A stretch of DNA of 50,240 nt from positions 1-50,240 of the forward strand of contig JAGALB010000021.1 of NCBI GenBank assembly GCA_017625405.1. The letters run 5' to 3'. Position 1 is the stretch's first letter. The number at the start of each line of letters is the position of its first letter. Position numbers and translations under genes: made by a program. The DNA is from Ruminiclostridium sp. (lineage in GTDB: Bacteria > Bacillota > Clostridia > Oscillospirales > Ruminococcaceae). The notes below the pieces were generated by a model. That model was not told the origin of the DNA. It was given only the letters and a program-made list of their open reading frames with translations, and ran no database searches. Shown in pieces: positions 30,275-37,306 of the stretch.

Positions 30275-30742
30275 TCACTTTTCAAGTATGCTTCTGAGCT
30301 TATCTCTTCCACGCTTTAACCGTGCCTTTACGTTGCTTTCGGAAATATTCAGCATTTCTGCAATCTCCGCCACGCTGTAACCCTCATAATAGTGCAGATA
30401 TATAGCAACACGGTAGTTTTTATTGAGTCGGTTAAGTGCTTCCAGCAGCTGATAGTCCTTTTCGTTTTTAAGCGGTATGTCCTCTGTAAGGGATGTTTTA
30501 CGCTTAATCCACGCAGAGCTGAGATAATTCTTTGCAGTATTGGATGTAACCCGTATGAGCCACGCTTTGACGTTTTTGTCGTCGGTGAAATTTTCCTTGC
30601 TGTTGTAAAGCTTCAGAAAAGCCTCCTGGGTTATATCCTCCGCATCAGCGCAGTTTTTCGTGTAGCTGTATGCCACACGGAATACCGTGGGCTGAAATGC
30701 CGTCACGTACTGTGTAAATTTTATACTGTCGATAAGTATCAT
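30275..30742 (-). CDS. ECF-type RNA polymerase sigma-70 factor
   Basis: 155 residues with region 2 (FRVAYSYTKNCADAEDITQE) and region 4 (YYEGYSVAEIAEMLNISESN, ending in RGRDKLRSIL); regions 1 and 3 are missing, as in extracytoplasmic-function sigma factors. ATG 30742 is preceded by AAAAAGGA with no gap, an unusually tight spacing, so the true start could be a few codons away. A TGTAAC/TGTC element lies 45-70 bp upstream and fits autoregulation. It is held in check by the protein encoded next. Confidence 0.88.
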   Translation of the reverse strand: MILIDSIKFTQYVTAFQPTVFRVAYSYTKNCADAEDITQEAFLKLYNSKENFTDDKNVKAWLIRVTSNTAKNYLSSAWIKRKTSLTEDIPLKNEKDYQLLEALNRLNKNYRVAIYLHYYEGYSVAEIAEMLNISESNVKARLKRGRDKLRSILEK

Positions 30743-30785
30743 TCCTTTTTGTTTATTCGGTACCGTGAAACGTTTCTGCAATAAA

Positions 30786-30812
30786 GACAATTCAGAAAAG
30801 CAAATGGTTACA
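30786..30812 (-). promoter_or_regulatory. Putative ECF-type promoter of the sigma/anti-sigma operon
   Basis: Minus strand TGTAAC, 17 bp, TGTC, ending about 44 bp before the sigma start codon. It matches the general AAC / CGTC pattern of ECF-dependent promoters and no sigma-A promoter is evident here. Confidence 0.5.
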
Positions 30813-30921: not shown

Positions 30922-31062
30922 ATGAGAATGTTGGAAAAATTTATCAGAATGTTTGAAATATGGATTCTGTGTGCCATGGGCATAATAACAGAAAAAACAC
31001 CACCGAAAAGAATTGAGGGCGGAAGCGTTGTGCCTCTGAGAATTACCACAAGTGAGAAATAA
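30922..31062 (+). CDS. 46-aa hydrophobic peptide gene
   Basis: Starts MRMLEKFIRMFEIWILCAMG, then a Pro/Lys segment and a short C-terminal strand-like part. AAGGAGA precedes the ATG at good spacing and a strong terminator lies 9 bp after the stop, so this is very likely a real, independently transcribed small gene. The N-terminal 20 residues form an amphipathic or membrane-seeking helix with one Cys. It is divergent from the ECF sigma operon and convergent with the RNA gene at 31071-31632. I recognise no family; it lacks the Pro/Trp pattern after Cys of AgrD peptides. Confidence 0.7.
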   Translation: MRMLEKFIRMFEIWILCAMGIITEKTPPKRIEGGSVVPLRITTSEK

Positions 31063-31070
31063 AACATCAA

Positions 31071-31097
31071 AAGCCGCTGCTGAGCAGCGGCTTTTTT
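31071..31097 (+). terminator. Bidirectional terminator between the 46-aa gene and the RNA gene
   Basis: Perfect 11-bp stem (AAGCCGCTGCT / AGCAGCGGCTT) with one loop base, followed by a T-run on the plus strand and, more weakly, TTTT on the minus strand. Confidence 0.88.
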
Positions 31098-31632
31098 CGT
31101 TAATATTCAATTTTGATATATATTCAATGCATGGGAATTTACCTCTTGAATTTATTTTACTAACAATAAATCATTCAGTACATCGGAGTTTACCTCTCAA
31201 TAATTTTTAGCAGTTAAACTGAGTGCTTTTTTGGACTCACTCCACTCCGTATAAATTTTATATGTAACGCTTTGTAGTAGCGGTTAAACTGACTGCAACA
31301 GTCACGTTCCATACAACCCTTTATCGTTCATTTACTGCTCCCAAGGTAATCGGTAAAACACCGTAGTTTCAAATCTGTTCTCTGTGCCATGCACAGGAAG
31401 CGGAGATTTCAGTAAAGCCTTTCCGAAGCAGAGTCAATGCCCGATAAAGTCTTAGATGATGATATTGTCTCCGTAGCCATTGGACTCGCTCCCCTTTCCG
31501 GTTGAATTTACAGCCTCGCTGCATCTCAGATTGCTTCAATCTTCTGTATAGAACTTTATCAAAAGATAAGTTTTCTGAATCCTGGGTCTGAGAGTATCGC
31601 TTCTCCCGAAGCTTTTCGTTCTCTCTTTCCTT
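31071..31632 (-). ncRNA. Orphan structured non-coding RNA, about 560 nt, family not recognised
   Basis: Minus-strand transcription unit with a strong promoter (31639-31667) and the hairpin at 31071-31097 as likely 3' end. There is no credible ORF in any frame. Internal order: hairpin near the 5' end (GCTTCGGGAGAAGC), several short stems, then two hairpins each followed by CAGTTTAACYGCTA (31278-31291 and 31208-31221), then two diverged 29-base repeats (31173-31201 and 31122-31150, 22 of 29 identical). It lacks tmRNA, RNase P, SRP and group I/II intron hallmarks that I can check by eye. Size and lack of a neighbour gene recall large ornate RNAs, without a match I can claim. Confidence 0.65.
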
Positions 31633-31638
31633 GATTAA

Positions 31639-31667
31639 AGAATACCATATTTTAGGGCGGTTGTCAA
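31639..31667 (-). promoter_or_regulatory. Sigma-A promoter of the orphan RNA gene
   Basis: Minus strand TTGACA, 17 bp, TATTCT; predicted start near 31632. It points into the non-coding stretch. Confidence 0.82.
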
Positions 31668-31839: not shown

Positions 31840-32133
31840 ATGTCTGAAGAACTTGAAATGCTTGAAGAATACGAACCCATAGTCGTTGACCTTGACGGCG
31901 AAGAGTTCGAGCTTATTGATACAGCTGAAATTGACGGTAAGATCTACGGTGCCTTCACACCCTATACAGAAGAGGATGAAGTCGAAGGCGATGTTGAATT
32001 CATTATCCTTGAAATCATCGACGATGAGGACGGCGAACAGTGCACCCTCAAGACCGTTGATGACGAAGAGCTTTACACAAAGATCGGCGACGAATTCATG
32101 AAGCTCTTTACGGAAGAATTTGACGAGGAATAA
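31840..32133 (+). CDS. DUF1292 family acidic protein
   Basis: 97 residues, very acidic (Glu/Asp in more than a quarter of positions). It shows the DUF1292 pattern: ELIDTAEIDGKIYGAFTPY, then EFIILEIIDDEDGEQ and a C-terminal helix DEFMKLFTEEFDEE. Function is unknown throughout the family, which is common in Firmicutes. ATG 31840 follows AAAGGAAG; an ATG at 31798 lies too close to the promoter and has no ribosome site. The stop codon is the first base of a 13-bp hairpin. Confidence 0.88.
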   Translation: MSEELEMLEEYEPIVVDLDGEEFELIDTAEIDGKIYGAFTPYTEEDEVEGDVEFIILEIIDDEDGEQCTLKTVDDEELYTKIGDEFMKLFTEEFDEE

Positions 32134-32170: not shown

Positions 32171-32461
32171 ACCGCCGTTTTGCAAATCTGTAATTTTTTC
32201 CGTCTTTCAGAAGGCGGAATTTGTCGGGGATCACGTCCCCTTTACTGCTTCGTTCGATTTCGTATGGATTTTATGATCCGACAATTTACAAAAGGGATTT
32301 CTCCATGGCAGCGGATTGCAGACCTCCCGTACTGCGGAAGAAGGGAGCGTGAACCTGTCAGGCGATCTTACCCGCCCTGCTTTTATGCGGGTTCTTTGTC
32401 CATACGTCCGGCGCGGCGGTAATACCAATCATCCCCTCCGAATAATATTCGGAGGGGTTTT
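32171..32461 (+). ncRNA. Putative structured RNA with terminator, family not recognised
   Basis: A 290-base stretch without a credible ORF but dense in complementary segments: a 9-bp TTCCGTCTT/AAGGCGGAA hairpin, TTGTC..GACAA enclosing GGGGA/TCCCC, CTCCC/GGGAG, GAACC/GGTTC enclosing ACCCGC/GCGGGT, and a closing pair ACCGCCG (near 32171) with CGGCGGT (near 32417). It ends in a strong terminator (32433-32461). Orientation is plus because of that terminator. No clear promoter is seen, so it may be the 3' part of the DUF1292 transcript. 6S RNA is possible by size and shape but not shown. Confidence 0.4.
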
Positions 32462-32464: not shown

Positions 32465-32677
32465 TTTTGCGAGCTTACCGTTATTTCTGTGTAACTTTTA
32501 TTGTTGCAGTCAGCAGTTATACACGTTGAAAGTTGTGACATGTGACGAAAATGATATCAATACAAAGATTTGTATATTTTTTTGTCACTTTTTGTTGTAT
32601 AATGTTGTTTATATAAATAGAAGAATCTGTAAATATAATAAACAGAACAGATTCTACGAATGGAACGGAGTGAGGAA

Positions 32678-33409
32678 TTGGCTTTTATTGAAATCAGGAA
32701 TCTCAGAAAGATATACCGTCTCGGAAACGAAAAGGTATACGCCCTGAAAAACATTGACCTTGAAATAAACAAGGGCGAGGTCTGCTGTATTCTCGGTACA
32801 TCAGGCTCAGGTAAATCAACCCTGCTGAATATGCTTGCAGGACTTGAAAAGCCCACGAGAGGCGATATTTTCATCAACGGTGTAAATATCGCAAAGCTGA
32901 ACGAGCGCAGACTTGCAAAATTCAGACAGGAAAACACGGGCTTTGTTTTCCAGTCGTACAACCTTATACCACAGCTTACGGCACTTGAAAACGTCGGCAT
33001 GCCGCTTATGTTCAAGGGACTGCCAAAAAGTATCCGAAACAAGAAGGCGCTTAAAATGCTGAAAGCGGTGGGACTCGGCGACCGTATGAAGCACCGCCCC
33101 AACCAGATGTCGGGCGGTCAGCAGCAGCGTGTGGGTATCGCCCGTGCATTTGTTGCAAAGCCTAATGTTATTTTTGCGGACGAACCTACCGGTAACCTTG
33201 ATACAAAGACAACTATTGATGTTATGACCCTGATGGTGGATATGTGCCGCAAACATAATCTTACCCTTATAATCGTAACTCATGATATTGAGATTGCCGC
33301 TTACGCAGACAGAATAGTGCACATAATCGACGGCGAAATTACAAGCGTTGAAGAAAATATTCACGCAGAAGATATAAATACAGAAAATGAAAGAGAGGAA
33401 ACAGAATAA
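32678..33409 (+). CDS. ABC transporter ATP-binding protein (MacB/LolD type)
   Basis: 243 residues. Walker A GTSGSGKST, Q-loop VFQSYNLIPQ, signature MSGGQQQR, Walker B VIFADEPTGNLD and the switch His in VTHD are all present. This is the ATPase of a MacB-type exporter with the next two genes. The TTG start at 32678 is preferred because GGAG lies seven bases upstream; ATG 32660 has no ribosome site. The stop overlaps the next start (TAATG). Confidence 0.93.
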   Translation: MAFIEIRNLRKIYRLGNEKVYALKNIDLEINKGEVCCILGTSGSGKSTLLNMLAGLEKPTRGDIFINGVNIAKLNERRLAKFRQENTGFVFQSYNLIPQLTALENVGMPLMFKGLPKSIRNKKALKMLKAVGLGDRMKHRPNQMSGGQQQRVGIARAFVAKPNVIFADEPTGNLDTKTTIDVMTLMVDMCRKHNLTLIIVTHDIEIAAYADRIVHIIDGEITSVEENIHAEDINTENEREETE

Positions 33410-35946
33410 TGAACAGAACCATCAGAAAAATCACAGCCCTGCTTGCAGCGGCAGCAATGTCGGTGACAATGCTGCCTTTAAGTGCGTACGCACAGGCTGC
33501 AACTCCACCTGCCCAGACAGAAGAGAACAGCGATCCCTCACTTAACGGCGCCGCCTTCAATGCAGGCATTTCTCTCAGCAAACCAGGAAGCGCCAAGGTA
33601 ATTGAAGGCGACAATGTAGGTGTTACCGTAACCACATATATTCCTATCGACAACTTTGCCGCAGGAATGACTGCCGAAGACTTTGACACAGGCAATATCT
33701 TCTCTATTTCGGAAAGCAATGACAGCTTCGACTGTCTTACAAACTATTCCTGGGAAGACAGCTACAGCATCGTAGGCAGCTTTCTGCGTATTGATTCATA
33801 CTTTATCGACGTAATTTATCTTGGAAAAAGCAATGTATTCAGCTATAAGGTATGCTATAACGCAGGCGGCTCAAGCGTCAGCGTTCCGCTTACCTGTACA
33901 GTCCCCGAATGTGTTGAAACCGTACCCGAAGAAGAGCCCGAAAAGGAAGAGGTTACCACCCCCTCCTTCACGCTTGCACCCGGCAGTTCTTTTTCCATTA
34001 AAGCAGGCGAAACAAAGAGTATCAGCGTAGGTCTCAGATCTGTAGGCAGAGGTTATGTTTCGATTGTTTCCGCAATGCTCACATCCGGCACTCCCGATAT
34101 CACCGTTGAAGATGTGGGAGAAAAGACAAGCGCATCCCTCTCCCCCTCCTTCAGCTTTAAGATTCGTGCGTCTGAAGCTGCTTCTGCAGGCGTGTATACA
34201 CTTACCCTCAATGTAAATGTATTCGGCAAGGACGGCGTTGCCGCAGGCAACTATACATATAGCCTTCCCGTAAAGGTTGAAAGCAATGTAAACGCATCCG
34301 CACTTTCCATAAAATCCTACAAGACAAGCAAGCAGGAAATCCGTTCAGGCGATAAGTTTGAGCTTTCCCTTACACTGGAAAACAGCTGCGGTATCGACCT
34401 TGAAAATATCGAAGTGACCCTTGCAGGTCTTGACGCTGCAAAGTTTGTTCTTGACGGCGGCTTCTCCAAGCAGACTGTAAGCATAAAGAACGGAAAAACA
34501 GGAAAGGTGACCTTCCCTCTTGTTGCGTGCGAGGGCATATCTTCCGTGCGTGAAAGTATCGGCATTCAGGCGGTATACAATGTAAATCCCGCAAAGCCCG
34601 ACGCTGCCCAGAGCCTTGAAACTTCAGTGATTGTAACCTGCGTTCCCGAAAGCGATAAAAAGGAAATGGGCAAGCACGACCTTACAATGACCGATTATTC
34701 TGTAAGTTCCCCTGCCGTAGCCGAAAACACACGCTTCACCCTTTCCGTAACATTAAAGAACTCCAGTGAAACTAAAATCGAAAATGCAAGACTTAACGTT
34801 CTCGGTCTTGACGGCTCGAAATTCGCAATCAACAGCGGTCTTACATACAGGGATTTCAATATCGAAGCAGGAAAAACAAAAACATTCACCTTTGAAATCG
34901 TAGGCTGCGCGGGCATTTCATCCATAAGAGAGGTTATACCGCTGCTTATTGAATACGGAACCGTCTCTTCCGAAGCAAGCGTTACTATCCCCTGTGCTCC
35001 CTCAGAAACGGCAGACGGTGAAAACGGTAACTTTGCACCCAACATCATTATTGAAAGCTATGATTTCGGCGGCGATTTCGTTACTGCAGGCGAAACCTTC
35101 AGACTTAACGTAAAGCTGAAGAACACCTCCTCCAGCTCTGTTATTGAAAACCTCAAGGTTACCATAAACGGCGTACCCAGCACAACCGACGGTACTATTG
35201 CATTTTCACCCGCAAATTCTTCAAATTCATTCTTCTTTGAAACACTGGCTGCAAAGGATATATCGGAAATCTCCCTTGACCTTCTTTCAAAGGTTGACGC
35301 CGTACCCAACAGCTATCCCTTACAGCTTTCCTTTACCTATGAATACAGATCAGGCGGAAAACGCTATCAGGGAAGCCCCGTAACCGAAACTATCACAATT
35401 CCTCTCCAGCAGGAGGACAGACTCACTGTAAACCAGCCTGAATACCCCAATTATGCCGTAAATGTAGGCGAAATGTGCTACATCAGCACCAGCCTTGTAA
35501 ACAAGGGCAAAAGCGGCGTTTATAATGTCACCGCAACCGTTGAGGGCGAAGGCTTTACATTGAACGAAAAGTCCTACTACATAGGAAATATCAACAGCGG
35601 CAGCGAGGAATACTACGATGTTCAGCTTACTCCCAATATGGAGGGCGAAATCACAGGCGAAATCGTAATCACCTACGAGGACGCAAACGGCACCGAAAAG
35701 GAACAGCGCAAGCCCTTCAGCTTCACAGCCATGCAGTTCAACTACGAAGAAATGTACCCTACGGACGATTTCTTCGTTGACCCCGGTATGACCGAGCCTG
35801 TGCCTGAAGTTCCGGCAGGCGGCTTCAATATCATTCCGCTTATTATCGGTGCGGTTGTTGTTATCGCTGTAATTGTGACAATCGTTATTATTGTAAAGAA
35901 AAGAAAACAGAAAAGGGAATTAGAGGACGACGATGAAGATATCTGA
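33409..35946 (+). CDS. Secreted, membrane-anchored repeat protein of a MacB-type exporter (COG1361-like)
   Basis: 845 residues. A signal peptide (1 to about 29, ending AYAQA) is followed by a chain of immunoglobulin-like modules of about 110-130 residues (starting near 300, 425, 545 and 665) that share motifs such as SLTLENSCGIDLENIEV and VTLKNSSETKIENARL. One membrane helix (about 805-829) and a cytoplasmic tail of basic then acidic residues close the protein. This is the CARDB/NEW3-like adaptor seen between ATPase and permease in Clostridial exporters. It is probably the outside part that handles the exported substrate. The 3' end overlaps the permease gene by 14 bases. Confidence 0.82.
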   Translation: MNRTIRKITALLAAAAMSVTMLPLSAYAQAATPPAQTEENSDPSLNGAAFNAGISLSKPGSAKVIEGDNVGVTVTTYIPIDNFAAGMTAEDFDTGNIFSISESNDSFDCLTNYSWEDSYSIVGSFLRIDSYFIDVIYLGKSNVFSYKVCYNAGGSSVSVPLTCTVPECVETVPEEEPEKEEVTTPSFTLAPGSSFSIKAGETKSISVGLRSVGRGYVSIVSAMLTSGTPDITVEDVGEKTSASLSPSFSFKIRASEAASAGVYTLTLNVNVFGKDGVAAGNYTYSLPVKVESNVNASALSIKSYKTSKQEIRSGDKFELSLTLENSCGIDLENIEVTLAGLDAAKFVLDGGFSKQTVSIKNGKTGKVTFPLVACEGISSVRESIGIQAVYNVNPAKPDAAQSLETSVIVTCVPESDKKEMGKHDLTMTDYSVSSPAVAENTRFTLSVTLKNSSETKIENARLNVLGLDGSKFAINSGLTYRDFNIEAGKTKTFTFEIVGCAGISSIREVIPLLIEYGTVSSEASVTIPCAPSETADGENGNFAPNIIIESYDFGGDFVTAGETFRLNVKLKNTSSSSVIENLKVTINGVPSTTDGTIAFSPANSSNSFFFETLAAKDISEISLDLLSKVDAVPNSYPLQLSFTYEYRSGGKRYQGSPVTETITIPLQQEDRLTVNQPEYPNYAVNVGEMCYISTSLVNKGKSGVYNVTATVEGEGFTLNEKSYYIGNINSGSEEYYDVQLTPNMEGEITGEIVITYEDANGTEKEQRKPFSFTAMQFNYEEMYPTDDFFVDPGMTEPVPEVPAGGFNIIPLIIGAVVVIAVIVTIVIIVKKRKQKRELEDDDEDI

Positions 35947-37306
35947 TATGCTGCAGATGTGTTTCCGCAATCTGTGGAGACGCAAAGGCCGTACCATGCT
36001 TACGGTAACGGGTGTAGTCATCGGTTCCTGTGCGGTTATTGTAATGATTTCCCTCGGCATCGGCATGAACAAGGCCATGGACGGTATGCTCGGCACTTTA
36101 GGCGATCTTACCGCAGTTACAATTTATAACTATAATTACGGCAACTCGTCAGCTGAAGAGGATAAGCCTCTGCTGGACGATACAGCTATTGAAAGCTTCA
36201 AGAATATAGAAAATGTCACCGCCGTAATACCGAAGATGTCCGTTTCCGGCGAAATGGTGACTATTGCATCAGGAAAAAATGACAGATATAAAATTTCCTG
36301 GACAGAAATTTACGGAATTGATTTCTCGCTTTTTGACGAAATGAACTACACTGCTGCGCAGGGAGAATTCCCGAAAGAGGGAATGTACGAAAACGCAATT
36401 GTTTTCGGCAACGAAGTCCCCTATCAGTTCAGGGATACAAAGAAAAAGGGGCAGGCATCCTACACGTACAAGCAGCAGCTGCCTGACGGAACCTTTTCAA
36501 AGCCTTTTGTTGAGCCTGTGGGCGAAACTATAATGCTGTACATAAACAACACCAAAAAAATGAACGACGACGGCAGTTATCAGTACGGCGGAAGAGGCTA
36601 CGAATTCAAGATGCTGGGTACGGCGGTGCTTGAAACCGACCCTATGTGGGAAACACCGTACAGCGTTTTTATTGACATCAATCTTGCAAAGCAGATTATA
36701 AGCGATTATCAGCGTCTGAACGGCATAAGGGATAATAAGCCCGCAGAATACACTCAGGTCAAGATTCTTACCGACAATATAGAACATACCGAGGCTGTAC
36801 AGGAGGCTGTTGAAGCCATGGGCTACGAAGCAAGCAGTATGGCTCAGGTGCGTCAGGAAATGCAGGGTTATTTAGGCGTTATCCAGATGGTACTGGGCAG
36901 CCTTGCTGCAATCAGCCTGCTGGTAGCAGCCATCAGTATTACCAACACTATGATAATGTCGATTTATGAACGAACAAGAGAAATCGGTATCATGAAGGTT
37001 CTGGGCTGTTTTATCAGCAATATCCGCCTTGTTTTCCTTATGGAGGCAGGCATGATCGGTCTGCTGGGCGGTGTGCTTGGCACAATCATCAGCTACGTAA
37101 TTTCAGCTGTCATGAATTTTCTGGGCAGCGGCTTATTCGGAAGCATGATGGGAATGCAGACAGCCGATTCACAGATTTCTATTATTCCTCTGTGGCTGGT
37201 ATTGCTCGCCCTTGTCTTCTCTACTATAATCGGTCTGATTTCGGGCTTCTACCCCGCAAACAGAGCAGTCAAGATAAGCGCTCTCGAAGCAATACGCAAC
37301 GAATGA
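35933..37306 (+). CDS. ABC transporter permease (MacB/FtsX family)
   Basis: 457 residues with the MacB plan: membrane helix near 22-44 (TVTGVVIGSCAVIVMISLG), a periplasmic-type domain (about 50-300), then three helices (about 315-340, 365-395 and 425-445) and the conserved YERTREIGIMKVLG loop and PANRAVKISALEAIR C-terminus. With the ATPase and adaptor it forms one exporter complex. It overlaps the previous gene, GAGG serving as ribosome site. A short repeat fragment (37307) and a terminator follow. Confidence 0.9.
   Translation: MKISDMLQMCFRNLWRRKGRTMLTVTGVVIGSCAVIVMISLGIGMNKAMDGMLGTLGDLTAVTIYNYNYGNSSAEEDKPLLDDTAIESFKNIENVTAVIPKMSVSGEMVTIASGKNDRYKISWTEIYGIDFSLFDEMNYTAAQGEFPKEGMYENAIVFGNEVPYQFRDTKKKGQASYTYKQQLPDGTFSKPFVEPVGETIMLYINNTKKMNDDGSYQYGGRGYEFKMLGTAVLETDPMWETPYSVFIDINLAKQIISDYQRLNGIRDNKPAEYTQVKILTDNIEHTEAVQEAVEAMGYEASSMAQVRQEMQGYLGVIQMVLGSLAAISLLVAAISITNTMIMSIYERTREIGIMKVLGCFISNIRLVFLMEAGMIGLLGGVLGTIISYVISAVMNFLGSGLFGSMMGMQTADSQISIIPLWLVLLALVFSTIIGLISGFYPANRAVKISALEAIRNE

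Follow-up and report, generated by a model that had tools for sequence, protein, structure and literature searches.

We identified a conserved and apparently undescribed family of RNAs, represented by a gene on the reverse strand of a 50,240-nucleotide stretch of Ruminiclostridium sp. DNA (hereafter, the window). The recurrent unit of the family is a ribosome-binding site (RBS), either GGnnGUGAGUCC or GGAAAGGnnGCGAGUCC, which is often accompanied by an AUG and a tiny open reading frame (ORF). These units follow a common order, in which GGAAAGGnnGCGAGUCC-A-AUG and a first ORF (ORF1) of about 15-26 codons precede GGnnGUGAGUCC-R-AUG, GAGAGGUAAACUCCGAUG and similar sites, whose ORFs are two or about ten codons long (range 2 to about 14). 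Judged from sequence, this architecture is accompanied by selection on starts, frame and shortness, by a pairing between ORF1 and its own RBS, and by a conserved chromosomal locus. We propose, tentatively, that the members of the family are stand-alone transcripts, each an array of strong RBSs, many of which have tiny ORFs, and that they act through captured ribosomes, which we regard as a quite possible interpretation.

The gene in the window and the markers of its locus were located as follows.
31639..31667, reverse strand: promoter TTGACA-17-TATTCT, common to syntenic relatives along with the CAAGGAAAGA start.
31071..31636, reverse strand: RNA gene, from promoter to terminator, with a transcript from about 31635; aligned with L017, L136 and L018.
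31621..31632, reverse strand: 5' leader AAGGAAAGAGAG, Shine-Dalgarno (SD)-like and without an AUG; invariant in the four aligned sequences.
31069..31095, reverse strand: intrinsic terminator, a terminator-like inverted repeat.
31840..32133, forward strand: divergent DUF1292 neighbour gene (Pfam PF06949, E 1.2e-11), a synteny marker.
32239..32426, forward strand: 6S RNA (RF00013, 43.5 bits, E 5.5e-7, just below the gathering score of 46.4), a synteny marker.

The leader (AATCAAGGAAAGAGAG) lies 3' of TATTCT, and is followed on the minus strand by about 560 bases to the terminator, whose 13-nt arms are fully complementary and precede a T run. A preliminary description of this DNA had claimed a dedicated RNA gene with this promoter and a terminator; both signals were present, the promoter (31667-31639) being conserved in relatives with the leader, and the position of the gene was likewise conserved among relatives. 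A 46-codon ORF without a Pfam match (30922-31062, forward strand) is convergent with the RNA gene and has the terminator in common with it, a sigma-70-type (ECF-like) factor gene (30275-30790, reverse strand) lies downstream of the RNA, and ABC transporter ATPase and FtsX/MacB-type permease genes (32660-33409 and 35933-37306, forward strand) lie beyond the 6S RNA. We consider it exceedingly improbable that the RNA is a leader or attenuator of a downstream gene. Some members of the genus do have a sirtuin-like or sugar-kinase-like gene (named by eye) downstream in the same direction, but the downstream genes differ between lineages (by eye), and the nearest one in the window, the 46-codon ORF, is on the other strand and is followed by the separate sigma-factor gene. 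With no constant same-direction downstream gene, a role in cis was rejected.

We identified several putatively translated units within the RNA gene.
31409..31480, reverse strand: ORF1, MATETISSSKTLSGIDSASERLY-stop, 23 codons, with a homologue in 27 of 30 loci of the genus including the window, and a frame test (below).
31482..31499, reverse strand: ORF1 RBS GGAAAGGGGAGCGAGTCC, of which CCGGAAAGG and GAGTCC are invariant in the four-sequence alignment.
31233..31243, reverse strand: module GGAGTGAGTCC, which lacks an AUG; of the family's 78 modules, 44 have this AUG-less form.
31175..31198, reverse strand: minigene Met-Tyr-stop with its RBS (GAGAGGTAAACTCCG-ATGTACTGA), SD energy -7.1, the ORF itself at 31183-31175.
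31124..31146, reverse strand: minigene Met-His-stop with its RBS (AGAGGTAAATTCCC-ATGCATTGA), SD energy -7.1, the ORF itself at 31132-31124.

The Met-Tyr-stop unit is present as ATG-codon-TGA in all four aligned sequences, and the Met-His-stop unit as ATG-CAY-stop in L017 and L136. A fourth SD-preceded ATG in the window (MNDKGLYGT at 31331, energy -6.5) was not conserved in the alignment. The RNA had been described as without coding potential, which is contradicted by the 23-codon ORF at 31480-31409, by the RBS-AUG-codon-stop units and by the selection on frame reported below. The pair of 3' repeats noted previously does recur at a spacing of 51 bases (25 nt, 84% identity), and what had been called 29-base repeats are RBSs with two-codon ORFs.

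The two repeated hairpins of the preliminary description, each followed by CAGTTTAAC and about 70 bases apart, fared differently.
31278..31303, reverse strand: hairpin GACTGTTGCAGTC, then AGTTTAACCGCTA; the hairpin is conserved in the alignment and the AGTTTAAC tail is not.

Both hairpins, GACTG-TTG-CAGTC and (by eye) GAGTG...CACTC, are present in the window with AGTTTAACYGCTA after each, at a spacing of 70 and with 89% agreement over 19 nt, but this repeat is not kept in the nearest relatives. At the place of the first hairpin L017 has CAGTCATAACC, L136 has CAGTCACACC and L018 has CAGTCGGCTT, and at that of the second the alignment shows no such motif in these three sequences. As CAGTTTAACYGCTA is not conserved as a pair in the aligned relatives, the hairpin-CAGTTTAACYGCTA module is not supported as the functional unit.

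We searched for relatives first by sequence and then by synteny. A nucleotide search with the window RNA in 71 genomes of the genus gave matches in 15. Most of the matches of the initial DNA-level search were short, L011 and L012 being true members, and the only long ones besides that to its own genome were in L136 (72%) and in G300, read as L017 (69%). The DNA-level search thus reached little past the closest species, and it was synteny with the DUF1292 neighbour that exposed the RNA family. The DUF1292 gene had a match in 44 of the 60 genus genomes searched, and at the divergent place beside it lay a transcript that shares the promoter and leader of the window RNA. By a strict pattern, a homologous ORF1 was present at 27 of the best 30 DUF1292-neighbour loci, the window being one of the 30; of the rest, L045 had ORF1 by a looser pattern, L042 had another form and L038 an ordinary gene.

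Beyond the genus, we selected 15 loci from 13 other genera on the strength of their promoter pattern and array (L209 would have been a sixteenth but was too short). In 14 of the 15, the RNA and a divergently oriented DUF1292 gene lay no more than about 700 bases apart, and nine had 6S RNA at or above the gathering score. The RNA is therefore no orphan, as it had been called: the homologue search that the preliminary description asked for showed relatives across many genera in the family of the host, at the same chromosomal place. Among loci of the same family chosen by DUF1292 alone, arrays were read in L222, L225 and L232, and L223, L224, L226 and L227 had 6-9 motif starts against 1-4 on the antisense strand. 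In family f24, recognisable arrays were found in four of the six loci read (L230, L243, L247 and L249; not L236 and L239). At about 260-590 of its stretch away from DUF1292, L230 holds what by eye is a minimal array in about 300 bases, with two AUG-less GGUGAGUCC modules, Met-Tyr-Thr-stop, a short ORF and Met-Tyr-Ser-stop.

No array was found in a motif-count screen of 20 DUF1292-site loci from 16 other families of the order, where the sole motif match (L280, f20) lay inside a 732-base ORF and one locus (L269) was only 434 bases long. A separate motif count covered loci of f13, f16, f18, f20 and f23, and the four of these loci that were read, L229, L233 and L235 (f18) and L244 (f13), had no array. 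L185 and L186 (f19) have, away from the DUF1292 site, short transcripts that combine a similar promoter and a terminator with one or two mini-ORFs, and these are possible reduced relatives. The pairing of DUF1292 with 6S RNA recurs in several families of the order. In L242 and L246 (f16), RNase P RNA is divergent from DUF1292, in the place of the mini-ORF RNA in the window's family. Because of this shared place we considered RNase P RNA as an identity for the family, and rejected it, since RF00010 scored over the cut-off elsewhere in all 15 carrier genomes tested.

When named genomes were searched with the promoter pattern, 24 loci emerged, of which 21 carry titles of Ruminococcus, Oscillospiraceae, Ruminococcaceae or Clostridia metagenome-assembled genomes, and the promoter-plus-leader pattern occurred in 112 of 396 genomes of the family, with five matches in a reversed control. 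The pattern also heads ordinary genes, as in L078, L084, L085, L094, L095 and the viral contig L290, and so was rejected as diagnostic and not used to estimate prevalence. L078, L084 and L095 are ordinary operons that have in common a promoter and a leader resembling CAAGGAAAGAGAnACAGCGCUGAAAUCU, which may be a separate leader element. A phage origin was rejected as well: phage and plasmid collections held no match to the window RNA, and the viral contig with the promoter pattern carries ordinary genes.

To examine selection we compiled 52 RNAs, 527 to 1377 bases long, whose length varies by eye with the number of ORF modules; the ends of 11 were set by hand. An ORF1 with such an RBS was present in 48 of the 52 by a loose pattern, with the picks in L120 and L076 among a few doubtful ones. 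In L119, tiny ORFs (MA, MEK, MALSDCP, MES and MD) are additionally packed densely at 931-1177. At an SD pairing energy of -5.5 kcal/mol or better, SD sequences preceded 178 of 910 ATGs on the sense strand of 51 RNAs (one with an N was omitted), compared with 71.3±5.7 over 20 dinucleotide shuffles and with 7 of 421 on the antisense strand, an excess that is inflated because the RNAs were picked after reading and partly for showing the motif, which does not inflate the frame tests. Individual RNAs had from 0 (L029) to 8 such starts at this strict cut-off.

The frame tests gave a consistent picture. The first in-frame stop of ORF1 fell after 13-27 codons in 43 of 47 strict-motif RNAs, compared to 5 in the +1 and 11 in the +2 frame. 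Starts of the form GG-N3-9-[CT]C-N1-2-ATG numbered 199 on the sense and 11 on the antisense strand; of the 199, 51 opened two-codon ORFs when read in frame 0, compared to 14 and 13 when the frame was shifted, indicating that SD-preceded two-codon ORFs of the kind seen in bar-like minigenes are under selection, and only 3 opened ORFs longer than 27 codons, against 27 and 18. Seven of the 199 were AUG-stop ORFs. Comparing 16 RNAs in 23 within-group pairs, which share ancestry so that the counts overstate independence, ATGs preceded by an SD were retained in 155 of 188 cases and other ATGs in 218 of 409. From these counts of starts, frame and length we conclude that the mini-ORFs, as read from sequence, appear to be translated in frame, and that their starts and shortness are selected and their peptides weakly conserved.

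The peptides bear on a rival explanation, that this is a polycistronic micropeptide gene whose tiny peptides are the products (signals, or ligands of ribosome or membrane), as in the insect gene tarsal-less/pri. Synonymous changes made up 56 of 214 codon differences in frame (0.262) against 28 of 205 (0.137) and 27 of 200 (0.135) in the shifted frames of the 23 related pairs, which would allow for functional peptides; peptides such as MISLxRFQKTF and MRIFEYAYHDLNI are found repeatedly within genera, and 38 of 48 ORF1 picks start M-[DE]. However, most in-frame differences were missense (158 of 214, and 139 against 51 synonymous among 190 in a wider run of pairs, where ORF length was equal at 108 of 178 shared starts), the counts for the three codon positions of ORF1 were close to equal (114, 120 and 129), the ORF1 peptides of one genus are not easily recognised in another, and the 51 two-codon ORFs and 7 AUG-stop ORFs among 199 can hardly encode a specific peptide. 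We thus consider the micropeptide explanation unlikely.

We additionally identified pairings within the RNA.
31427..31435, reverse strand: GACTCTGCT inside ORF1, partner of AGCGAGTC in the ORF1 RBS (31483-31490), duplex -14.3 kcal/mol, p 0.025 against shuffles.
31442..31449, reverse strand: CUUUAUCG inside ORF1, which can pair with CGAUAAAG at 31319-31326 (alignment, by eye).
31544..31551, reverse strand: CUAUACAG, predicted by RNAalifold as the long-range helix partner of UGUAUGG (31309-31315).

Across the family, the ORF1 RBS GCGAGUCC pairs with GGCUCGC inside ORF1, with a duplex p<0.05 against shuffles in 25 of 48 RNAs. When the RBS was disregarded in the assignment of partners, 300 of 336 cells were paired against 288.9±2.6 with shuffled partners (reached in 0 of 2000), and 176 of 210 against 166.7±2.8 for the 30 unique pairs (reached in 1 of 2000). 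As the RBS pairs with the coding sequence of ORF1, translation of ORF1 would unfold its own RBS hairpin. The counterparts of CUUUAUCG and CGAUAAAG are CUUUACCG and CGGUAAAG in L136, with one mismatch in L018 (by eye). In the helix CUAUACAG/CUGUAUGG, one sequence has changes on both sides of two outer pairs, and RNAalifold also predicted a small hairpin, GACUG-UUG-CAGUC, in the four closest sequences.

The window RNA folded better than shuffled sequences (z -2.87; 1 of 100 shuffles equally good). Together with the covarying ORF1-RBS pairing, the predicted helices and the retention of GGnnGUGAGUCC in AUG-less modules, this is what a structured regulatory RNA would lead one to expect, in which the mini-ORFs are secondary (translation of ORF1 switching the fold, or ribosomes protecting the RNA from Rho or RNases) and the action is by structure or base pairing. 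The functional structured RNA of the preliminary description is supported to this extent by the fold and by one family-wide covarying pairing, but the covariation term for the four closest sequences (+0.25) gave no net support. Selection on AUG, frame and ORF length argues against this explanation, as do RNA lengths that vary with module number, and we consider it rather doubtful. Since constraint falls on RBSs, starts and shortness, and less on the peptides, we favour a ribosome-engaging RNA over a bare structured one.

The AUG-less modules (GGnnUGAGUCC; 44 of 78), many of them directly after the stop of a ten-codon ORF (by eye), led to a comparison with the 3' end of 16S rRNA. Median predicted pairing was -15.0 kcal/mol for modules and -17.1 for ORF1 against -10.1 for 102 ordinary SD genes, using a 16S tail that includes the end of h45, so that part of the pairing falls on h45 bases; core energies were similar (-6.9, -7.8 and -7.5, respectively). 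Extended complementarity was supported by shuffling the 3' half of the motif (101 modules; 93% and 99% lower). When a 16S gene was scanned in 741 windows against the 3' half of 40 sampled modules, 93 windows paired better than the 3' tail, and for the whole motif five overlapping windows of one internal 16S site did so. The extended complementarity is thus supported against shuffles but not unique, and is only a hint. It would fit a ribosome-trapping RNA, whose docking sites, many with extended 16S complementarity and with two-codon ORFs or none, would tune the pool of free ribosomes as 6S RNA tunes polymerase. As the complementarity is not unique, and as only one of the six genomes searched yielded the 16S 3' end, which was not found in the window's own draft, we offer this more specific reading as conjecture, possible if on balance doubtful.

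A sponge for protein, rather than for ribosomes, would be the CsrB-like alternative, in which GGA motifs titrate CsrA. GGA motifs are many, and the window's genome (G000) encodes CsrA; however, CsrA was found in only 8 of 15 carrier genomes, with near-complete genomes among the seven in which it was not found, and a sponge needs no selection on AUG or frame. We consider this highly improbable, and rejected a CsrB/RsmZ-type sponge as the general role.

No Rfam 15 family (including OLE, ROOL, GOLLD, raiA, tmRNA and RNase P) matched in the window at the gathering threshold, in agreement with the earlier view, offered with a call for such a scan, that this is none of the common large bacterial RNAs. 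In the homologue loci scanned, L119 and L123 among them, the only Rfam matches were to neighbouring 6S, tRNA and T-box outside the RNA. In the window, relaxed thresholds (E up to 5) gave, besides the 6S RNA as the best match nearby, only matches far below gathering. OLE, ROOL, GOLLD and raiA are stand-alone structured RNAs of several hundred bases represented in Rfam; the present RNA is likewise a stand-alone transcript of several hundred bases, but has no Rfam match inside it and is made of putatively translated modules.

Other known systems resemble it in part. The bar minigenes of phage lambda have a strong SD followed by two-codon ORFs, as here, from which fast cycling and peptidyl-tRNA drop-off are expected; in contrast to bar, the present gene is chromosomal and conserved, its array is ordered, its first ORF is longer, an RBS is paired and the second codons are of many kinds. 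The insect tarsal-less/pri is a polycistronic smORF RNA that was first called non-coding, and is similar in being a supposedly non-coding RNA with several tiny ORFs; it differs from the RNA described here in that the latter has SD-driven starts, two-codon ORFs, weak peptide conservation and RNA-level constraint on the RBS. SgrS and attenuators are dual-function or leader-peptide RNAs in which a short ORF overlaps a regulatory structure, as ORF1 overlaps RNA structure here, whereas our RNAs have up to 8 SD-preceded AUGs (strict cut-off) and are without a known constant target or downstream gene. To our knowledge, the architecture is that of no described bacterial system.

In the literature consulted, mostly non-subscription and including PMC11109978, we found no description of this RNA family. 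In PMC8040213, 3161 candidates for structured RNAs are reported from human microbiomes, of which some overlap potential small genes, and members of the family may be hidden among these. According to PMC8708949, peptidyl-tRNA drop-off and toxicity can result from two-codon ORFs that have a strong SD, and the axe-txe minigenes act in cis, upstream of a protein gene.

On the ribosome-engaging reading that we prefer, the job of this RNA is probably done by the ribosomes working on it. Ribosomes would start, stop after a few codons and re-load on the array, so that the transcript would bind and cycle ribosomes, or the tRNAs of the minigenes, instead of directing protein production. Translation of ORF1 would open the folded 5' part, making the RNA sensitive to the state of translation, and the AUG-less RBS copies may dock small subunits without productive starts.

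Because the locus adjoins DUF1292 and 6S RNA, the gene is easy to find and to delete. If confirmed, this would be a stand-alone bacterial RNA gene with translation itself as its output, in which ribosomes are loaded on an array of minigenes, and a ribosome-side counterpart to the RNA-polymerase regulator 6S RNA, encoded beside it. It would additionally provide a conserved cellular role for natural two-codon genes, and would imply that large RNAs regarded as non-coding may be dense with ORFs below the size at which genes are annotated.
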